A DNA stretch of 44,376 nucleotides from Sideroxydans sp. GTDB taxonomy: Bacteria > Pseudomonadota > Gammaproteobacteria > Burkholderiales > Gallionellaceae. Of the stretch, positions 7,056 through 15,427 are shown in pieces. A program made the translations under genes and the position numbers. Location of the stretch: positions 1-44,376 of the forward strand of contig DAIDAG010000018.1 of the NCBI GenBank assembly GCA_027310725.1. Reading direction: 5' to 3'. The notes under the pieces were generated by a model, which was not told the origin of the DNA, searched no databases, and saw nothing but the letters and a program-made list of their open reading frames with translations. How positions within the stretch are numbered: the stretch's first letter is position 1; each line of letters starts with the position of its first letter.

Positions 7056-10000
7056 TTAGTGAAAGTCCCGCGACTGCGTGACCAGATCGCCGAGTAGTGG
7101 CGTCAAATCTTTCAAGTGCCCCGCAATGAGATGAACCACCTCGCCCTGCCGCTCCAGCACACCGTACACTGCCAGCAACCGCGATCCCAGCAACTCGCGC
7201 CGCTGCCTTTCGCCGAGGTCGCGCCACACCACGACGTTGATGGGCCCGGTCTCGTCTTCCAGGGTTACGAACGTCACTCCGCTCGCGGTACCCGGGCGCT
7301 GGCGACCGATCACCAGACCGGCTGCGCGCGTGAGTCGGCCGTGCGGAAATGTGCGCAACTCCGCAGCGGTGATCAATCGTTGCGCACGGAGCGTGTCGCG
7401 CAGCAGTGCCAGCGGATGCCTGCCCAAAGTGAGCCCCAGGCTGTCATAGTCGGCGACCAGGTTCTGGCCTTCGGTCAGCGGTAACAGTTGCGGCTGTGTT
7501 TCCTCGACGGTGGCTAATGCAAGCGGCGTAACCTGCTCGATGCCGGCCACGTCCCAGTAGGCTTGGCGGCGGTGGCCTGCCAATGTGCTCAACGCGCCTG
7601 CCGCGGCCAGGCATTTGAGGTCGCGGCTTTCCAGCCCGGCTCGCCGGGCCATATCTTCTACGCTGTCGAATGGCTTCTGCGAACGCGCTTCTGAGAGACG
7701 TGCGGCACCTTCCAGAGAAAGGCCGTTCACCATGCGCAGACCAAGACGCAGTGCAGGCTGGGAGACTCCCCCCTCTCCCCTAAGGGACGAGGGCTGGGGA
7801 GAGGGGTATGCCGCCAAGGTGCAATCCCACTCGCTTTCGGTCACGTCCGCCGGCAGCACTTCCACACCATGACGGCGCGCGTCCTGCACGAGCTGGGTCG
7901 GCGCGTAGAAACCCATGGGCTGGCTGTTCAGCAGTGCACACGCGAAAGCCGCCGGTTCATGGCACTTGAGCCAGGCTGAGATATAGACCAGCAACGCAAA
8001 ACTTGCGGCATGCGATTCCGGGAAACCGTATTCGCCGAAACCCAGGATCTGCTGGAATATCTGCAGGGCGAATTCCTGCCGATAGCCGCGCGCACTCATG
8101 CCATCGATCAGTCGCTGTTCGAGATGTTCCAGTCCGCCCTTGCGTTTCCACGCCGCCATCGAACGCCGCACTTCATCCGCCTCACCCGGCGAGAACCCGG
8201 CCGCCACCACGGTGAGCCGCATCACCTGTTCCTGGAAGATGGGCACGCCCAGCGTGCGTTGCAGCACATCCCTCACCTCCTCGCTCGGGTAGGTCACCGG
8301 CTCCGAACCTTCGCGGCGGCGCAGATAGGGATGCACCATGCCTCCCTGGATCGGTCCCGGGCGCACGATGGCCACCTCGATCACCAGGTCGTAGAAATTG
8401 CGTGGCCGCATGCGCGGCAACATCGACATCTGCGCTCGAGATTCGATCTGGAACACGCCCACCGTATCGGCGTGGCCGATCATTTCGTACACCGCTGGAT
8501 CTTCGCGCGGGATGTCCGCCATCGTGATTGCCCGGCCTCGCAATCTGCCCACTTCATCCAGCGCACGGCGGATGGCGGAGAGCATGCCCAGCGCAAGCAC
8601 GTCCACCTTGAGCAGCCCCAGCGCGTCGAGATCGTCCTTGTCCCACTGGATGATGGTGCGCTCTGCCATCGCCGCATTTTCGATCGGGACGAGTTGCGAG
8701 AGTTTGCCGCGCGCGATCACGAAGCCGCCCACGTGCTGTGAAAGGTGGCGCGGGAAGCCGATCAGCTCGTCGAGCAGTTGCATCAGCAGGCGCACTTTCC
8801 GGTTCTCGGGATCGAAACCGGCTTCCTCAAGGCGCTGCGGCAGCACCTGGCGGCCATCCCACCACGCCAGGGATTTGGACAGGCGATCCACCTGCTCCAG
8901 GTCGAAACCAAGCGCCTTGCCTATGTCGCGCATCGCGCTCTTGGGCTTGTAGGTGATGACGGTGGCTGCGAGTGCCGCACGCTCCCGGCCGTATTTCGCA
9001 TAGAGATACTGGATCACCTCTTCGCGCCGTTCGTGCTCGAAATCAACATCGATGTCGGGCGGCTCGTTGCGCTCCTTGGAGATGAAACGCTCGAACAGCA
9101 TTTCCATGCACGCCGGATTCACTTCGGTGATGTGCAGCGCGTAACACACCGCGGAGTTGGCCGCCGAGCCGCGCCCCTGACACAGGATGCCGCGGATGCG
9201 GGCGAAGCGCACGATGTCGTGCACGGTGAGGAAATACGGCTCGTACTTGAGCTCCTCGATGAGCGCCAGTTCGTATTCCACCAGAGTGCGCGCCTTGTCG
9301 GGCACGCCGTCCGGGAAGCGCAGCAAGAGACCTTCCTCGGTCAGTTTGCGCAGATACGAGATGGCTGTTTCCCCAGCGGGCACCAGTTCTTCTGGATATT
9401 CGTAGCGCAATTCGTCGAGCGAGAAGTGGCAGCGCTCGGCAACGACAAGAGTCTGTTCCAGCAATTCAGGTTGGTAGATTCGTGCAAGGTCGGCCAGTTC
9501 GCGCAGATGGCGTTCGCCGTTCGGATACAGCTCAGTCCCGGCTTCGAAGACCGGCACGCAGAGGCGAATGGCGGTGAGCGTGTCCTGCAAGGCACGGCGC
9601 TGTGCGACATGCATGTGCACGTCGCCTGCTGCCACCAGGGGTAGGCTGGCTACGGCTCCGAGCTCGATCAGTCTGGATAAACGCTCGGCGTCGTCTGCTG
9701 CGCGAAACAGCTCCACTGCGAGCCAGGATCGTCCCGGAAAGATAGTTGCGACTTGTTGTGCCTGTTCCAGGGTAGGCATGGGGTCCGGCAACAGCAGCGC
9801 AAGGCAACCCGGCAGACCATTCTGGATATCGCTGAGCGCGAGGCTGTATCGACCCTTGATGGCGTTGCGACGCCCCTGGCTGATCAGCTCGGACAGGTTG
9901 CCGTAGCCGGTGCGGTCTGTTGCAAGCAGCACAATGCTCGGGCCATCGGCAAAACGAATCTCGCTGCCCACGATCAGCTTCAAGCCGCATTTCTTCGCTG

Positions 10001-10160
10001 CCATATGGGCACGCACGACACCGGCCAGCGAACATTCGTCGGTGATGGCCAGTGCTGCGTAGTTTAGTTCGCGGGCGCGTTCTACCAACTCTTCGGCGTG
10101 CGATGCACCACGCAGGAAGGTGAAGTTGGAGAGGCAGTGTAGTTCGGCGTAGGGAGGCAT
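7056..10160 (-). CDS. dnaE2: Error-prone DNA polymerase DnaE2 (ImuC)
   Basis: A C-family polymerase alpha subunit of 1034 residues, the catalytic member of the ImuA-ImuB-ImuC translesion mutasome. The N-terminal PHP domain starts at [17 protein letters not shown]. Polymerase acidic residues are visible in PDIDVDF (D369, D371, D373). The C-terminal part holds helix-hairpin-helix and OB segments ([20 protein letters not shown]). The internal ATG is chosen because homologues begin at MPPYAEL; the open frame extends 31 codons upstream, but those codons lie in a palindromic repeat. Residues about 786-799 ([13 protein letters not shown]) are encoded by another repeat inserted in frame. It is the last gene of the mutasome cluster, with a DUF559 element separating it from imuB. 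Confidence 0.95.
7766..7806. repeat. CTCCCC/GGGGAG palindromic repeat inside dnaE2
   Basis: A single palindromic unit (CCCTCTCCCCTAAGGGACGA then GGGCTGGGGAGAGGGG) of the same family as the four copies at 10180-10748. Its 41 bp sit inside the dnaE2 reading frame and encode [13 protein letters not shown] on the minus strand. It falls between the polymerase core and the C-terminal helix-hairpin-helix part, probably in a surface loop. Confidence 0.85.
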
Positions 10161-10179
10161 AGTTGAGATATCTATTTGC

Positions 10180-10226
10180 CCCCCTTGCCCTCTCCCCAGC
10201 CCCCCTCCCGCTTGCGGGCGAGGGGA
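10180..10226. repeat. Palindromic repeat, left doublet outer unit
   Basis: It reads CCCTCTCCCCAGCCCCCTCC followed by CGCTTGCGGGCGAGGGG. It is inverted relative to the unit at 10271-10311, with about 45 bp between them, so the pair forms a REPIN-like doublet. It overlaps the upstream extension of the dnaE2 open frame. Confidence 0.8.
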
Positions 10227-10267
10227 TTGAAGTTGTTCGACTAACTTACTCATATATGCGATACCAC

Positions 10268-10777
10268 TTACTCCCCTCGCCCGTTTACGGGAGAGGGGCT
10301 GGGGGAGAGGGCGATGCGAATCTCTTCCAGCACTCCCTCCAGCTCCTGCATAACATCATTGTTCCAGAAACGCAGCACCGTATAGCCCTGGTTGCTTAGC
10401 CACGCATCCCGTTGCTGGTCGTATGCCGTTTGTTCAGCGTGTTGTCCACCATCGAGTTCGATAATCAGCCGACGCTCCACGCACACAAAATCCACAATGT
10501 AGGAACCCATGGGTTTTTGCCGTCTGAACTTCAGTCCCATAAAACGATGCGCGCGCAGGTGATACCACAACCGCTCCTCGACCTTGGTCTGGTTGCTGCG
10601 CAATGTTTTGGCGTTGTCTAATATCTTCCCTCTCCCCTGCCCCTCTCCCACAAGTGGGAGAGGGGAGTGATGTGCTGCGAAATTGCTTATATCTGCGACA
10701 CCACCTTCTCCCCTCGCCCGTTTACGGGAGAGGGGCTGGGGGAGAGGGAAGTACAGATATTTATTTTTCGTGGCCAT
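10268..10777 (-). CDS. DUF559 domain protein (Vsr/PD-(D/E)xK-like nuclease fold)
   Basis: A 169-residue protein whose core (residues about 55-155) is a DUF559 domain, related to very-short-patch-repair-like endonucleases. Candidate active-site residues are Asp in GSYIVDF, and Glu and Asp plus His in IIELDGGQH. The N-terminal 50 residues ([30 protein letters not shown]) and the C-terminal [13 protein letters not shown] are simply translations of palindromic repeats, so only the centre is likely to fold. The second ATG is chosen for a GGAG six bases upstream. It lies between imuB and dnaE2 with no room for its own promoter, so it is probably read with the operon. Substrate and activity are unknown. 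Confidence 0.85.
10271..10311. repeat. Palindromic repeat, left doublet inner unit
   Basis: It reads CTCCCCTCGCCCGTTTACGG then GAGAGGGGCTGGGGGAGAGGG. Together with 23 bp of left flank it matches the unit at 10685-10748 at about 58 of 64 positions. It encodes the last residues of the DUF559 protein. Confidence 0.85.
10628..10667. repeat. Palindromic repeat, right doublet inner unit
   Basis: It reads CCCTCTCCCCTGCCCCTCTC followed by CCACAAGTGGGAGAGGGGAG. It is inverted relative to the unit at 10707-10748, with about 40 bp between them. It is translated inside the N-terminal part of the DUF559 protein. Confidence 0.8.
10707..10748. repeat. Palindromic repeat, right doublet outer unit
   Basis: It is nearly identical to the unit at 10271-10311, including the CGCCCGTTTACGGGAGAGG centre. 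It encodes [16 protein letters not shown] near the start of the DUF559 protein. The right copy of the candidate target duplication begins six bases beyond it. Confidence 0.85.
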
Positions 10778-10789
10778 GAAAGTCTCCAT

Positions 10790-12196
10790 TCACGCAAACA
10801 ACCCATGCACAAACCACCCACCACTACTGTGATCGCGAAACACCCACAACCTCGAACCATTGCGCCCCTGCGCCACGTAATAGTCGCGCGCCACATCCAT
10901 GCCGTCCCACCAGCCGCTCTCGATACGTTCCGGACCGGACTGCAATTCCAGCCGATCTCTCTGGCATGGCCTGGGCACAGGCAGCAACCACAGTGGACGC
11001 TGTAACTTGCCTGGCGACTTGATCGCATCTCCCGCGTCGCATGGCCGCCAGGCCAGCTCGGGCCGGTGGTCAGTTGCCGGGGCGATGCTGAACACCGCTT
11101 CCTTGCCCAAGCGGATGCGCAGACGTTCCAGCAACAGGTTGGCATCGCCTGTCTCGGCACTGTCCTGGAACAGGTCGAGGTTGGATAACTCGATGGTCTG
11201 AATGAGACTGGATTGAAGCCTGATAGTGTGAACCGGGGCAGCCAGGCGCGTGCGGCCCAGTGTTTCGCGCAGCAGGAGCAGCATGCGGTCAAAGGCTCGC
11301 GTCGGCTGGGCGAAGCCCACTTTGACTACAGTATCCGGCACGTCTTCGTGATGACAGACGAGCTCGAATTCATGCACGCCTGCCTGGCGCAGATTGAGGT
11401 AGCCCTCCAGTTCCAGCAACAGGCGGCGCGAGGCGAACAGCAGCGCTTCGGCTTCATGCACCAGCGACGGCAATTCCAGACGGCGCTGGAAACTGGGCGG
11501 CGGCACGAAGAATTCTGGCGACTCGGGCAAGCGGCCCAGTGTGCGGTCCACTTCGTCCAGCAAGCCCTGGCCGAAGCGGCGCGCCATACCTGCACGCGGA
11601 AAGCGCAGGCAGTCACCTAATGTATGCGCACCCAGCATCTCCAGACTGTCCAACGTATCCTGCGGTTGAGACAGCCACCTTACCGACAATGCGCCCAGAA
11701 ACTTTTCGAGTTTGGCCGGATCGCGGATTGCCACTTCCTTTCCTGCCAGCGCCAGCAGCCACGCCGCATGCGGCGTCGGTGCGCAAGCAAGGCTGGCGCT
11801 GTAGCCCATTTCGTTGAGTCCGCTGCTCATTTGCGCGATCAGGTTCTTGAAGCCGCGATGCAGGCGCAGGCAACTGCCGATCTCGATCAGCAAACCTTCT
11901 GGAGGCTGCAGGCTTACGGCCGGAGTAAACCCTCCGGCCCAGGAGGCGAGACCTTCCAGCGATTCCTGCTCCGCTGCCAGATCGCGAACGCGCACGACGA
12001 GATTGGTCACCAAAGTCTGTGCGGCGGCACCCGGCATGCCTGCCCGCACACCCCGCTCGCTGGCGGCCTCGTTGCACACTTTGACGCGCGAACGGTTGCC
12101 TTGCTTTTCTATGACGGCGAGTGGTTCTGGTGCAGCGCCGCCTCTGGAGTAGATTTCCAGGGGGAGTGCGGGGAAATGTATGGCTAGCCAAAACAT
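10790..12196 (-). CDS. imuB: ImuB, Y-family polymerase-like mutasome protein
   Basis: A 468-residue Y-family polymerase homologue that serves as the hub of the ImuABC translesion complex rather than as a polymerase. The N-terminus (MFWLAIHFPALPLEIYSR) lacks the acidic DxD-type residues seen in active Y-family enzymes, as is usual for ImuB. A thumb/little-finger region follows, and a QRPLWLLP segment near residue 410 looks like a beta-clamp binding motif. The C-terminal part (WWDGMDVARDYYVA, WFVHGLF) is the family's characteristic tail. It starts 29 bp after imuA, and its stop touches the first ATG of the DUF559 open frame. It is probably damage-induced as part of the operon. Confidence 0.93.
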   Translation of the reverse strand: MFWLAIHFPALPLEIYSRGGAAPEPLAVIEKQGNRSRVKVCNEAASERGVRAGMPGAAAQTLVTNLVVRVRDLAAEQESLEGLASWAGGFTPAVSLQPPEGLLIEIGSCLRLHRGFKNLIAQMSSGLNEMGYSASLACAPTPHAAWLLALAGKEVAIRDPAKLEKFLGALSVRWLSQPQDTLDSLEMLGAHTLGDCLRFPRAGMARRFGQGLLDEVDRTLGRLPESPEFFVPPPSFQRRLELPSLVHEAEALLFASRRLLLELEGYLNLRQAGVHEFELVCHHEDVPDTVVKVGFAQPTRAFDRMLLLLRETLGRTRLAAPVHTIRLQSSLIQTIELSNLDLFQDSAETGDANLLLERLRIRLGKEAVFSIAPATDHRPELAWRPCDAGDAIKSPGKLQRPLWLLPVPRPCQRDRLELQSGPERIESGWWDGMDVARDYYVAQGRNGSRLWVFRDHSSGGWFVHGLFA

Positions 12197-12225: not shown

Positions 12226-12924
12226 TCAGTTTCGGACGACTGCGCGCAACGACGGCACAACAGATAACGCCGGTGCAGATGGGCGTGCGCGGCGTACGCC
12301 ATTGGTTTGCTGCAAATCCACCAGCACGGGTTTGCTCACCTGCCCGCCCCGGCGTTTGAGGATGTGCACGGCCAAACCGTTCGCGGTTGCTTCAAGACGC
12401 AGGCGCAGTGCGGCGGTGGAACGTTCCTGCGCGGCACTCGCTGAACGGAACAACACGCCCCAGGCCTTGCCTGTTTCCGCACCAAGTTGCAGGCGGCGCA
12501 TGCGTTTCTCGTCGGGCGTGCTCAGCCAGGCCAGTACGGCGCTGCATGCGCCGGAACGCAGCGCCTGCTCTGCCGTCCACCAAGCATCGGCCGGGGTTTG
12601 CGGCTGCGCGACCAGCAATTGTTTGAGATTGATCCCGGCAGTGCTCAGCGCCGGTGCATAAGGAATATGCGGGGGAGAAACCCAGGCCTGCCATGTGCTT
12701 TGTGTCGATACACGTGCGAGTGCCGGGAGCAGCAGGCGCAGCTCGCCTATGCCTTCGCGCTCCAGCAGGATTTCAGTGAGTGCTCCACGCGCCCAGCCAC
12801 CGCCCGGCAGCTGTTCGTCCAGTTCGGCGAATCCGGTCGGCAGCGTGTACTCGTCTGTCTGCGCAAGCTGGTCGCCGCGCCAGATGCCGGGGTGCTGCAG
12901 TACTAGGTCCAGAGAGGCGTTCAT
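12226..12924 (-). CDS. imuA: ImuA, RecA/SulA-like mutasome protein
   Basis: A 232-residue ImuA protein, the RecA-fold partner of ImuB in translesion synthesis. The diagnostic start of the fold is TGFAELDEQLPGGGWARGAL followed by EILLEREGIGELRLLLP. No clean Walker A lysine is visible, as expected for this group. The ATG at MNASLDLVL is chosen because homologues begin there; the open frame continues 27 codons upstream, but that stretch lies in the interspersed repeats and does not look like protein. No strong ribosome binding site is seen. It heads the imuA-imuB-(DUF559)-dnaE2 run and follows the UvrD-like gene after a repeat-filled 406-bp gap. Confidence 0.9.
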   Translation of the reverse strand: MNASLDLVLQHPGIWRGDQLAQTDEYTLPTGFAELDEQLPGGGWARGALTEILLEREGIGELRLLLPALARVSTQSTWQAWVSPPHIPYAPALSTAGINLKQLLVAQPQTPADAWWTAEQALRSGACSAVLAWLSTPDEKRMRRLQLGAETGKAWGVLFRSASAAQERSTAALRLRLEATANGLAVHILKRRGGQVSKPVLVDLQQTNGVRRARPSAPALSVVPSLRAVVRN

Positions 12925-12950
12925 ATTACAAACCGCATTTGAACAAACTC

Positions 12951-13310
12951 CAACTCCGTTCGTGGTGAGCTTGTCGAACCATGAATGGAGGACAACTGAG
13001 TCCACCCTTCGACGGGCTCAGGGCGAACGGATTTTTGAATGAACTCCGAACCCCACCTCCGTTCGTCCTGAGCTTGTCGAAGGATTGAACGGCGCTTAGG
13101 TCGAATGGATTTTTGAGCGGACTCCGAACCCCAATCCCGTTCGTCCTGATAACCAGCGACTTGCCCGCTCGCGGGCTTAGTCGAATGGCTATAACCAACC
13201 ACTTGGCAACCCTCTTGGGGTTGCTTAGTGGGATGGCTAGTTGTTTCACCAGTAGTTCCACCAGCCTGTCGAAGGATTGAACGGCGCGCAGGTCGAACAG
13301 ATATAAATTG
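12951..13310. repeat. Cluster of TTCGTCCTGAGCTTGTCGAA-type repeats
   Basis: This gap between imuA and the UvrD-like gene is built from several partial units. TTCGTCCTGAGCTTGTCGAA occurs whole at 13061-13081, with variants at 12960-12978 and 13140. An inverted arm lies at 13006-13027. The longer unit (ACTCCGAACCCCA... and GGATTGAACGGCGC) recurs near 13043, 13083, 13121 and 13273. The GAACGGATTTTTGA and GAATGGATTTTTGA stretches also recur. No gene and no clear operator is visible in it. Confidence 0.8.
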
Positions 13311-13330
13311 GCCCACTCTATTCATGGCCG

Positions 13331-15427
13331 CTACTTCCACATCGCCTTCATCTTCGCCAGCAGATCGACCACCTCTTCGCGTGAACGTCCTGCCGCCTGC
13401 ACGGGTGCAGCATCAGCCACGGGCCAGGTTTTCTTTTCGAACAGATCGAGGATGCTGGCCGGAATGAAACGGGAACGCCCGGCATAGACATGGCGGTCGC
13501 CGAACTGCGATTGCTGCGTGACGAAGAAACGCTGCGGCACCACGATCTGCAGGTGCTCCTTGGCGCGGGTCATGGCGACATACAGCAGCCGCCGTTCTTC
13601 CTCGATCTCGTTCTCGTTTCCGGTAGCCAAGTCCGAGGGCAGACAGCCGTCGACTGCATTCAGCAGGGTGACCGATGTCCACTCCTGCCCTTTCGCCGAA
13701 TGGATGGTGGAAAGAATGAGGTAGTCTTCATCGCGCAGCGGCACTCCCGATTCGTCGCTGGTGGCATCGGGCGGGTCGAGCGTGAGTTCGGTGAGGAAAC
13801 GCTGGCGCGAGGGATAGGTGGCGGCGATCTTGGTCAGCTGCTCGATGTCGATCTGGCGCACCTGCGCGTCTTCATACAGGCGTTCCAGATGTCCCTGGTA
13901 CCAGTTGCTGATCCTCTCGAATTCGGATGGCCACGGCACGGCGCGCTGGTGCAGGTTTTCGGCCATTTCGAGGAAGCCCTGCCAACTCTCGGCCGCACCG
14001 GATGGTACGCGCGATTCCTGCAGCCCCATCATCACATCCTGCGACAGGGCAATACTATCGAGCACCTGTGCCGAGGTCTTCGGACCGATGCCTGGAATCA
14101 GCTGCATCACGCGGAACCCGGCCACGCGGTCGCGCGGATTCTCGATCCAGCGCAACACGGAGAGCACATCCTTGACGTGCGCCGATTCCAGGAACTTCAG
14201 GCCGCCGAATTTCACGAACGGGATGTTGCGCCGCACGAGTTCGATCTCGAGCGTCGCGCTGTGATGCGAAGCGCGGAACAATACCGCCTGCGACTTGAGC
14301 CGGATGCCCATCTCCCGACGCTCCAGCACTTGCTCCACCACGAAGCCGGCTTGGTCCGTTTCGTCGCGTACCGTGACGAGCTGCGGGCGTTCGCCCGAGG
14401 TCTTGTTGCTCCACAGCTTCTTGCTGTACTGCTCGGCAGCCAGCCCGATCACGCCGTTTGCCGCCGCGAGGATGGGTTGCGTGGAGCGGTAGTTCTGTTC
14501 CAGCGTGATGATCTTTGCGGGCGGATCGAAGTGCGCGGGGAAATCGAGGATATTGCGCACGGTCGCACCGCGGAAGGCATAGATCGATTGCGCATCGTCA
14601 CCGACGACCGTAAGTCCGCGGCCATGCGGCTTGAGCGCGAGCAGGATGCTGGCCTGAAGCGCATTGGTGTCCTGGTATTCGTCCACCAGGATATGGTCGA
14701 AGCGCGCGCCGATCTCCGCCGCGAGTGTTGGTTCGGCCACCATCTGTGCCCAGTACAGCAGCAGGTCGTCGTAGTCGAGCACATGTTGTTTCTGCTTGGC
14801 TTCCACATAGGCAAGGAACAGTTGCCTGAGTTCGTCCTGCCATTCTGTGCACCAGGGGAAGCGGCGCTGCAGCACTTCTTCCAGCGGCGACAGGGTATTG
14901 ACCGTGGCCGAGTAGATCGAGAGGCAGGTGTTCTTGAGCGGAAAACGCTTGGCCTTGCAGGATGCCCCCAGCTCATGCCGCACCAGGTTCATCAGGTCGG
15001 CCGAGTCGCCCCGGTCGTGGATGGTGAAGCCCGGATCGAGACCTATCCTGCCGGCGTATTCGCGCAACAGGCGTGCACCGACGCTGTGGAAGGTTCCGGT
15101 CCAATGAAGCTTTGCACCGGCAAGCCGCGGATGGTCAGCCGCAAGCTGGCGCAATATACGTTCGGCGCGGCGTGCCATCTCGTCTGCCGCGCGGCGCGAG
15201 AAAGTCAGCAGCAGGATGGCGCCGGGATTGGCGCCCTGCGCAATGACATGGGCGACGCGGTGTGCCAGGGTATTGGTCTTGCCTGAACCTGCCCCGGCGA
15301 TCACCAGCAGCGGCTCATCCGCAGCACCACCTGTGCCGTGCTCTACGGCAATACGCTGTGCGGTGTTGAGGCGCGAAAGATAGCTTTCTGCCTCGGCTAT
15401 AGGGGCGTTTTCAACTTCGAGGTTCAT
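13331..15427 (-). CDS. UvrD/Rep-family superfamily 1 DNA helicase
   Basis: A 698-residue 3'-5' SF1A helicase. Motif I is GAGSGKT (residues 45-51), motif Ia TFSRRAADEM, motif II DEYQDTN, motif III GDDAQSIYAFRGA, motif IV QNYRST, motif V STIHSAKGQEW and motif VI YVAMTRAKEHL. All key residues are present, so it should be an active ATPase. The order and length fit UvrD/PcrA/Rep, but I do not assign a specific name. The promoter at 15481-15509 lies about 55 bp upstream and carries a palindromic operator. The gene points toward imuA-imuB-dnaE2 and may have been the first gene of that operon before repeats entered the gap. Confidence 0.93.
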   Translation of the reverse strand: MNLEVENAPIAEAESYLSRLNTAQRIAVEHGTGGAADEPLLVIAGAGSGKTNTLAHRVAHVIAQGANPGAILLLTFSRRAADEMARRAERILRQLAADHPRLAGAKLHWTGTFHSVGARLLREYAGRIGLDPGFTIHDRGDSADLMNLVRHELGASCKAKRFPLKNTCLSIYSATVNTLSPLEEVLQRRFPWCTEWQDELRQLFLAYVEAKQKQHVLDYDDLLLYWAQMVAEPTLAAEIGARFDHILVDEYQDTNALQASILLALKPHGRGLTVVGDDAQSIYAFRGATVRNILDFPAHFDPPAKIITLEQNYRSTQPILAAANGVIGLAAEQYSKKLWSNKTSGERPQLVTVRDETDQAGFVVEQVLERREMGIRLKSQAVLFRASHHSATLEIELVRRNIPFVKFGGLKFLESAHVKDVLSVLRWIENPRDRVAGFRVMQLIPGIGPKTSAQVLDSIALSQDVMMGLQESRVPSGAAESWQGFLEMAENLHQRAVPWPSEFERISNWYQGHLERLYEDAQVRQIDIEQLTKIAATYPSRQRFLTELTLDPPDATSDESGVPLRDEDYLILSTIHSAKGQEWTSVTLLNAVDGCLPSDLATGNENEIEEERRLLYVAMTRAKEHLQIVVPQRFFVTQQSQFGDRHVYAGRSRFIPASILDLFEKKTWPVADAAPVQAAGRSREEVVDLLAKMKAMWK

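Follow-up and report, generated by a model that had tools for sequence, protein, structure and literature searches.

Between imuB and dnaE2, in a 44,376-nucleotide stretch of DNA from Sideroxydans sp. (hereafter the window, by which we mean this whole stretch), lies a gene for a DUF559 protein that is surrounded by short palindromic repeats. The locus raises the question of whether the gene and its repeats form one mobile unit and, if so, which enzyme moves it. A sequence-only reading of the window had proposed such a unit, in which a nuclease-like protein takes the place that RAYT transposases hold for REPINs. To answer this question, we examined the locus itself, the flanks of DUF559 genes and the number of repeats in other genomes, and orthologous sites with and without the gene.

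The DUF559 gene, its protein and its repeats

Four palindromic units lie around the DUF559 gene, where the sequence-only reading had placed them (Table 1). In each unit, a short loop joins a pyrimidine arm to a purine arm, which is followed by another purine run, termed the tail. The palindrome pattern yields eight strand-matches in the window, compared with 0.01 expected from shuffles. The likeness of the inner left and outer right units, put at 58 of 64 bp beforehand, is indeed strong, although its extent is better given as 78 nt at 86%, over which the two halves of the element are alike (10234-10311 with 10671-10748). The repeats had also been read as encoding the ends of the protein, which holds for both the N and the C terminus in the window; elsewhere, the C-terminal case is the usual one. 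The window genome (3.03 Mb, 64.8% complete) contains a single DUF559 gene, and a narrower palindrome pattern finds six sites in this genome, three of which are at that gene.

Table 1. Positions of the gene, its palindromic units and its neighbours in the window
Feature	Position	Strand	Remarks
DUF559 (PF04480) ORF, 173 aa	10268..10789	-	core domain 10307-10624; both termini repeat-encoded
Inner left palindromic unit	10271..10311	+	purine tail toward gene; DNA hairpin -11.2 kcal/mol, z -2.5
Inner right palindromic unit	10628..10667	-	tail toward gene; DNA hairpin -13.1 kcal/mol, z -3.2
Outer left unit	10188..10226	-	tail away from gene; hairpin at shuffle level, z -0.3
Outer right unit	10708..10748	+	tail away from gene; near-copy of inner left unit; hairpin z -2.7 (folded as 10709-10748)
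Left copy, candidate 12-bp target duplication	10166..10177	.	AGATATCTATTT, direct reading
Right copy, candidate 12-bp target duplication	10755..10766	.	AGATATTTATTT, direct reading
imuB, neighbour	10790..12196	-	PF00817; name from gene order and the sequence-only reading, fits the junction in a relative
dnaE2, other neighbour	7056..10160	-	PF07733 and others; start set at ATG 10160
Additional unit of the window repeat family	7771..7808	-	within the dnaE2 coding sequence, in frame

The unit inside dnaE2 has a similar counterpart in the dnaE2 gene of a relative (G287), and it therefore probably predates the element between imuB and dnaE2. Translations of open reading frames seem to reveal a second, different dispersed repeat at about 12921-13340 of the window, where the frames read DKLRTNG, RQAHHER and RPEPVEG, which we take to be phrases of another common bacterial repeat.

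The window gene matches the PF04480 profile with an E value of 1.7e-46 and 157 bits, above the curated cut-off of 20.6. In a 65-row alignment of the family, E16, W20, F33, R35, F46, D58, G59, H62, D69 and R85 are invariant, and D45 and E56 are nearly so. Of these core positions, E16, D45, E56, D58 and H62 are the candidates for catalysis. The nearest solved relative by sequence is 3hrl (E 1.3e-33), which is also a Foldseek match of the predicted model (pLDDT 92.4; E 5.8e-10). Further fold matches of this model are I-Bth0305I (3r3p; E 1.3e-4, TM 0.69 by query) and Vsr (1cw0; E 4e-3). Judged from the model, the window protein is predicted to have a homing-endonuclease fold, with I-Bth0305I as its closest functionally characterised fold match. 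Against the Vsr profile TIGR00632, the protein scores 19.7 bits (E 8e-4), below the cut-off of 97.85. The family member YcjD was tied to Vsr in 2005 (PMC1189080). A second paper (PMC12907096) describes an SOS response to the Caulobacter DUF559 protein VsrA in cells without the cytosine methyltransferase, and models VsrA as a mismatch nuclease. This SOS response is consistent with DNA cutting.

BoxC-type repeats have been known since the 1990s. By their sequence, the window repeats are the BoxC/PIT/TM intrastrand-triplex motif, so the word 'undescribed', which had been applied to the element, is wrong for its repeats. The units share with this motif the CCCTCKCCC-loop-GGGMGAGGG core, the purine tail and the occurrence as solo units and inverted doublets (PMC4666352). 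When the units are read against the published motif table, the arms agree and the assignment holds, whereas the tails differ in letters from those of E. coli. We regard the units as putative triplex formers, with computed hairpins.

Holder et al. (2015) reported 3610 copies of the motif in 262 genomes and state that they never found mobility-giving activities near it (PMC4666352); neither 'duf' nor 'endonuclease' occurs in the main text. The hrpB-mrcB doublet and the unit that follows ycjD match entries 1, 2 and 9 of the K-12 table in the same paper (PMC4666352). For Enterobacter sp. 638, 100 BoxC copies are reported (PMC2869309). A search of titles and abstract openings, with subscription journals outside its scope, returned no earlier report of a link between DUF559, COG2852 or ycjD and a repeat, and the REPIN/RAYT papers found by the literature search do not mention Vsr. 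Within the literature searched, the link between DUF559 and BoxC is new.

Repeats beside DUF559 genes and across genomes

To assess whether flanking repeats are a general property of DUF559 loci, the left flank of each locus was compared with the reverse complement of its right flank, irrespective of sequence and with a score cut-off of 16. A profile search finds PF04480 in 87 of the 275 class-sample genomes. Flanking inverted repeats are present at 48 of 70 loci, all 70 of which had usable flanks, as opposed to 0 of 58 control stretches 700 nt farther out (58 loci had distal controls). In a second set, drawn from named genomes, 52 of 79 loci are flanked, compared with 1 of 709 intervals shifted along those loci; one of 80 loci (L211) was dropped because it has 47 nt on one side. 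The titles in this set, mostly metagenome bins, include Pseudomonadota, Nitrospirota, Chloroflexi, Planctomycetota, Gastranaerophilales and Doudnabacteria. About a third of the sampled loci (70 + 79) have no flanking inverted repeat. Both counts exclude 13 loci taken from plasmid-collection records. Four of these 13 reach the cut-off score; among them, five Azospirillum records represent one shared site with repeats mostly on a single side, and at the E. coli and Neisseria loci the repeats are either one-sided or direct.

The repeat sequence varies between loci, and within each locus the left side matches the right. Across 82 loci, protein similarity correlates with unit similarity (Mantel rank r 0.23, a value reached in 0 of 500 permutations), and shared descent may lie behind part of this correlation. 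A unit with a tail is recognisable on the left at 48 of 149 loci and on the right at 41 of 149. The tail points toward the gene in 44 of the 48 left units and 40 of the 41 right units, and the stop codon lies inside or past the right tailed unit at 37 of the 39 loci for which a stop was found. As read from their flanks, elements also lie between carA and carB (L187, L191) and between pheS and pheT (L166). DUF559 cores were also observed in other long frames of about 1050-1220 aa (G308:C225, G310:C66 and G330:C1; in the class sample L024 and L061, among others), which are perhaps further in-frame insertions or fusions.

The presence of DUF559 predicts repeat number, as had been proposed for checking, over the 275 genomes, within families and within the genus of the window. 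At least three palindromes occur in 37 of the 61 genomes with a strong DUF559 match, compared with 22 of the 214 others (odds ratio 13.5, p 5e-15). For at least ten palindromes, a count rarely attainable from the gene-flanking units by themselves, the figures are 27 of 61 and 10 of 214; units beside the DUF559 gene are included in all of these counts and inflate them. Genomes whose only matches are weak or fragmentary, 26 in number, behave like the remainder: three or more palindromes occur in 3/26 of them and in 19/188 of the others. Among 28 families that contain both kinds of genome, those with DUF559 have more repeats in 18, fewer in 4 and equal numbers in 6 (p 0.004). Within the window genus, the 23 DUF559 genomes have a median of 28 repeats, compared with a median of 2 in the 11 genomes without the gene (p 1.7e-4), and DUF559 copies correlate with repeats (Spearman 0.83 in 21 genomes at least 90% complete, uncorrected for kinship).

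The association is largely independent of RAYT. After stratification by RAYT, the odds ratio for DUF559 is 13.0, and that for RAYT given DUF559 is 3.5. The RAYT profile (NF047646) exceeds its cut-off in 128 of the 275 genomes, and the RAYT label used for stratification covers 121. At least seven repeats are found in eleven genomes that have DUF559 but no strong RAYT match, several of them with a weaker NF047646 match. The window genome, at 64.8% completeness, has no NF047646 match.

Two outcomes had been named as fatal to the idea of a nuclease-repeat element: relatives without DUF559 that still carry both doublets and have no empty site, or no statistical association between gene and repeat. 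Neither holds generally, although individual genomes do have many repeats and no DUF559. Nineteen of the 214 genomes without DUF559 have at least five repeats, and the repeat-rich genomes with no DUF559 match include G262 (84 palindromes), G089 (72), G045 (56), G273 (53) and G324 (48); G079, G324, G262 and G045 together span 31-84 palindromes. In such genomes, either the gene was lost or left unassembled, or the repeat is served by another enzyme. In the window genus, G306 has one DUF559 gene and no match to the searched palindrome pattern; the repeat in this genome may have another sequence.

Orthologous sites with and without the element

At orthologous sites, the gene and its units are present or absent together. 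In the window genus, one hrpA codon is empty in 16 genomes, and in 10 it contains a DUF559 element that is in frame and free of stops. The spacing of the conserved hrpA motifs is 459-603 bp when the site is occupied and 9 bp when it is empty. In this survey, the G291 sequence stops at the site, and no match was obtained for five genomes of the genus, including that of the window. A solo BoxC unit occupies the codon in G286 and in G309, a member of the same family, and in G304 (L325) the codon holds a different repeat, presumably of RAYT type. The DUF559 tree, which excludes rows with internal stops and whose bootstrap had not settled, places the ten hrpA copies and the named locus L210 on one side of a supported branch; copies from one genus are scattered over several parts of this tree. 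In an hrpA tree that includes 7 of the 10 genomes with the insert (the other three had short stretches only), the carrier genes are not monophyletic (3 changes, 2 forced; bootstrap range 3-5). The hrpA element was therefore gained or lost more than once.

The junction of imuB and dnaE2 was compared with that of G287, the nearest relative with dnaE2 (88% amino-acid identity over a 200-aa query). G287 has a DUF559-free junction, and it has a DUF559 gene elsewhere. Removal of the element from the window had been expected to restore a gap of about 40 bp; the gap in G287 is 9 nt, so this figure is not exactly matched. The 12-bp duplication proposed for the window is present there as a pair identical at 11 of 12 positions, but it is unsupported as a general feature. 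A strong pair resembling a target duplication borders 2 of 66 elements, one of which is that of the window, compared with 0.26% of cross pairs, and a general 12-bp target duplication was therefore dropped. Comparison of the 66 elements revealed no target duplication of constant length, as would characterise an insertion sequence or MITE, and none was seen at the two better empty sites, which are a Pseudomonas site in G410 and the E. coli hrpB-mrcB doublet.

The joined flanks of the Pseudomonas site match 66 of 119 genomes, and 30 loci were read among the flank matches. Four of these loci (L215, L218-L220; in G335, G358, G459 and G409) carry the gene. A fifth carrier was observed in G424 (L245), where the DUF559 gene is broken by a transposase-like gene that we take to be of the IS66 type. 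The element is absent from G410, whose flanks are 93% (left) and 86% (right) identical. The edges in G410 coincide with the start and the end of the outer tails, and a GTAG-type repeat, presumably of RAYT type (L216), sits there instead. More distant relatives carry the gene, so G410 may have lost the element. The other 24 loci also lack the gene, but their gaps are unrelated (452-1274 nt) or could not be measured, so they do not serve as clean empty sites. Palindromes of the presumed RAYT type are seen where relatives hold DUF559 elements both at the hrpA codon (G304) and at the Pseudomonas site (G410), as if both repeat families shared landing spots.

Element turnover can be slow. Between two Pseudocitrobacter genomes of about 93% identity, eight sites could be compared and none was empty, and six of the eight qualify as repeats in both genomes; ten and seven repeat clusters were found, of which nine and six gave rows, one of them uninterpretable. 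Fast repeat turnover in this genus was dropped as an idea, with 0 of 8 comparable sites empty. Leads from tblastn searches of phages and plasmids gave no clean empty site.

The DUF559 gene ycjD of E. coli has a BoxC unit at its 3′ end (degenerate in K-12) and another beyond. A 2-kb query over the ycjD locus is covered to at least 80% in 3362 of 5426 E. coli genomes. BoxC-like copies were counted in 60 spread rows (59 chromosomes and one plasmid or fragment) by coverage of a query taken immediately downstream of ycjD, with few sequences read. The 37 chromosomes with the ycjD locus have 13-30 BoxC-like places each; among the 22 without it, 7 have 15-18 copies, one has 13 and 14 have 2-4. One chromosome in the group with 15-18 copies is named O157:H7, and the low-copy group includes ST131 and O6:K2:H1, which we take to be phylogroup B2. 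This pattern is clade-level evidence only. Strains lacking ycjD were rejected as clean empty sites, the spot being occupied by an efflux cluster. The tails of the K-12 hrpB-mrcB doublet point inwards, which is the layout of a DUF559 element minus the gene. By query coverage, 36 of the 59 chromosomes have this doublet in full, 3 have a shortened form and 20 lack it (about 102 bp); the K-12 and AVS0575 sequences were compared directly. Solo units and doublets occur at the same kinds of sites as the element, and repeat number follows the gene.

What moves the element, and what it resembles

The combination of DUF559 gene and repeats is almost certainly mobile. We consider it probable that the nuclease gene and its flanking palindrome-tail units constitute one mobile element, which also spreads gene-less BoxC/PIT repeats. 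The proposal of a nuclease-repeat element is supported by the flanks, the association and the insertion polymorphism; that DUF559 is the enzyme responsible for mobility is something we infer, and think likely. In such a mechanism, the nuclease would recognise the folded unit, as a hairpin or a purine-motif triplex, probably when the unit is single-stranded at replication forks, and would nick or cut at or near the tail. Repair of the resulting end would leave a copy of the unit, of a doublet or of unit, gene and unit at a new place, by either homing-like gene conversion or cutting or copying of one single strand.

Alternatively, a RAYT/TnpA-REP or other transposase might move the repeats, with DUF559 as a passenger caught between two copies. 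RAYT is found in 128 of 275 genomes and retains an odds ratio of 3.5, and repeats of the presumed RAYT type stand at the hrpA codon in G304 and the Pseudomonas site in G410. Yet the odds ratio of 13.0 for DUF559 survives RAYT stratification, eleven DUF559 genomes reach at least seven repeats without a strong RAYT match, and the window genome, as far as it is complete (64.8%), has no match. A passenger also gives no reason to expect one family to be flanked in most loci across phyla, or its copies to correlate with repeats, and we consider this account unlikely. Pure homing, in which a free-standing endonuclease converts empty orthologous sites only and the repeats spread otherwise, is similarly doubtful. 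It accommodates the I-Bth0305I fold match, the empty and full hrpA alleles within one genus, the position of the hrpA-inserted copies on one side of a branch and the approximately three changes needed on the hrpA tree, but it leaves unexplained why repeat number tracks DUF559 and why the gene itself is bordered by this very repeat.

A role for DUF559 as a host repair nuclease for triplex or mismatch structures, retained by repeat-rich genomes and co-located with repeats by selection or hot spots, would agree with Vsr as a fold neighbour and with the SOS effect and mismatch-nuclease model of Caulobacter VsrA (PMC12907096). It does not explain the two-sided units with gene-facing tails, the in-frame gene and units in hrpA, or the placement of one genus's DUF559 copies in several parts of the tree, and appears quite improbable. 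The repeats are G/C runs, which might suggest GC-rich low complexity or chance; this artefact is already refuted by the same-locus controls (0/58 and 1/709), the shuffle expectation of 0.01 and the orthologous presence and absence, and its probability is negligible.

A single mobile element of nuclease gene and units, which we prefer, can be compared with known systems. REPIN-RAYT systems consist of short palindromes with a GTAG head, dispersed as solo units or inverted doublets and tied to one gene that they flank. The DUF559 element likewise has dispersed solo and doublet palindromes linked to one gene flanked by them. It differs in that the protein has a predicted Vsr-type nuclease fold and is not a Y1/HUH transposase by the NF047646 profile, and in that its units, as read, have a purine tail and no GTAG head. 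The element therefore behaves in a REPIN-like manner but, with a different enzyme and a different repeat, falls outside REPIN-RAYT. With I-Bth0305I and free-standing homing genes it shares the predicted fold and the presence or absence at one conserved site (hrpA); unlike those genes, the DUF559 gene is bordered by palindromes that are also dispersed as gene-less copies, and no intron or intein was seen with the element. Vsr, too, shares the predicted fold, whereas the DUF559 gene is flanked by repeats. NGO0050 (PDB 3hrl) and E. coli YcjD belong to the DUF559 family, YcjD with BoxC units on its 3′ side, and the accessible parts of the literature searched describe no element or repeat function for either.

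We lean slightly towards a broader view, in which DUF559/YcjD nucleases would be the enzymes of a previously unrecognised, transposase-free class of mobile elements that extends from Pseudomonadota to Chloroflexi, Nitrospirota, Planctomycetota and Doudnabacteria. Such elements would be bounded on both sides by a triplex-forming unit, could enter host proteins such as HrpA in frame and would disperse copies that lack the gene, and the BoxC repeats of E. coli would be their non-autonomous part. BoxC-type triplex repeats thereby gain a candidate spreading enzyme, and DUF559, a common family still labelled 'unknown function', gains a candidate role. The hrpA case represents a mobile gene tolerated within the open reading frame of another gene. 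The question is accessible in E. coli K-12, which has ycjD and about twenty BoxC-like copies together. These observations suggest that a Vsr-type nuclease may play for BoxC the part that RAYT transposases play for REPINs, and that a mobile gene-repeat unit may account for the spread of widespread repeats, including BoxC.
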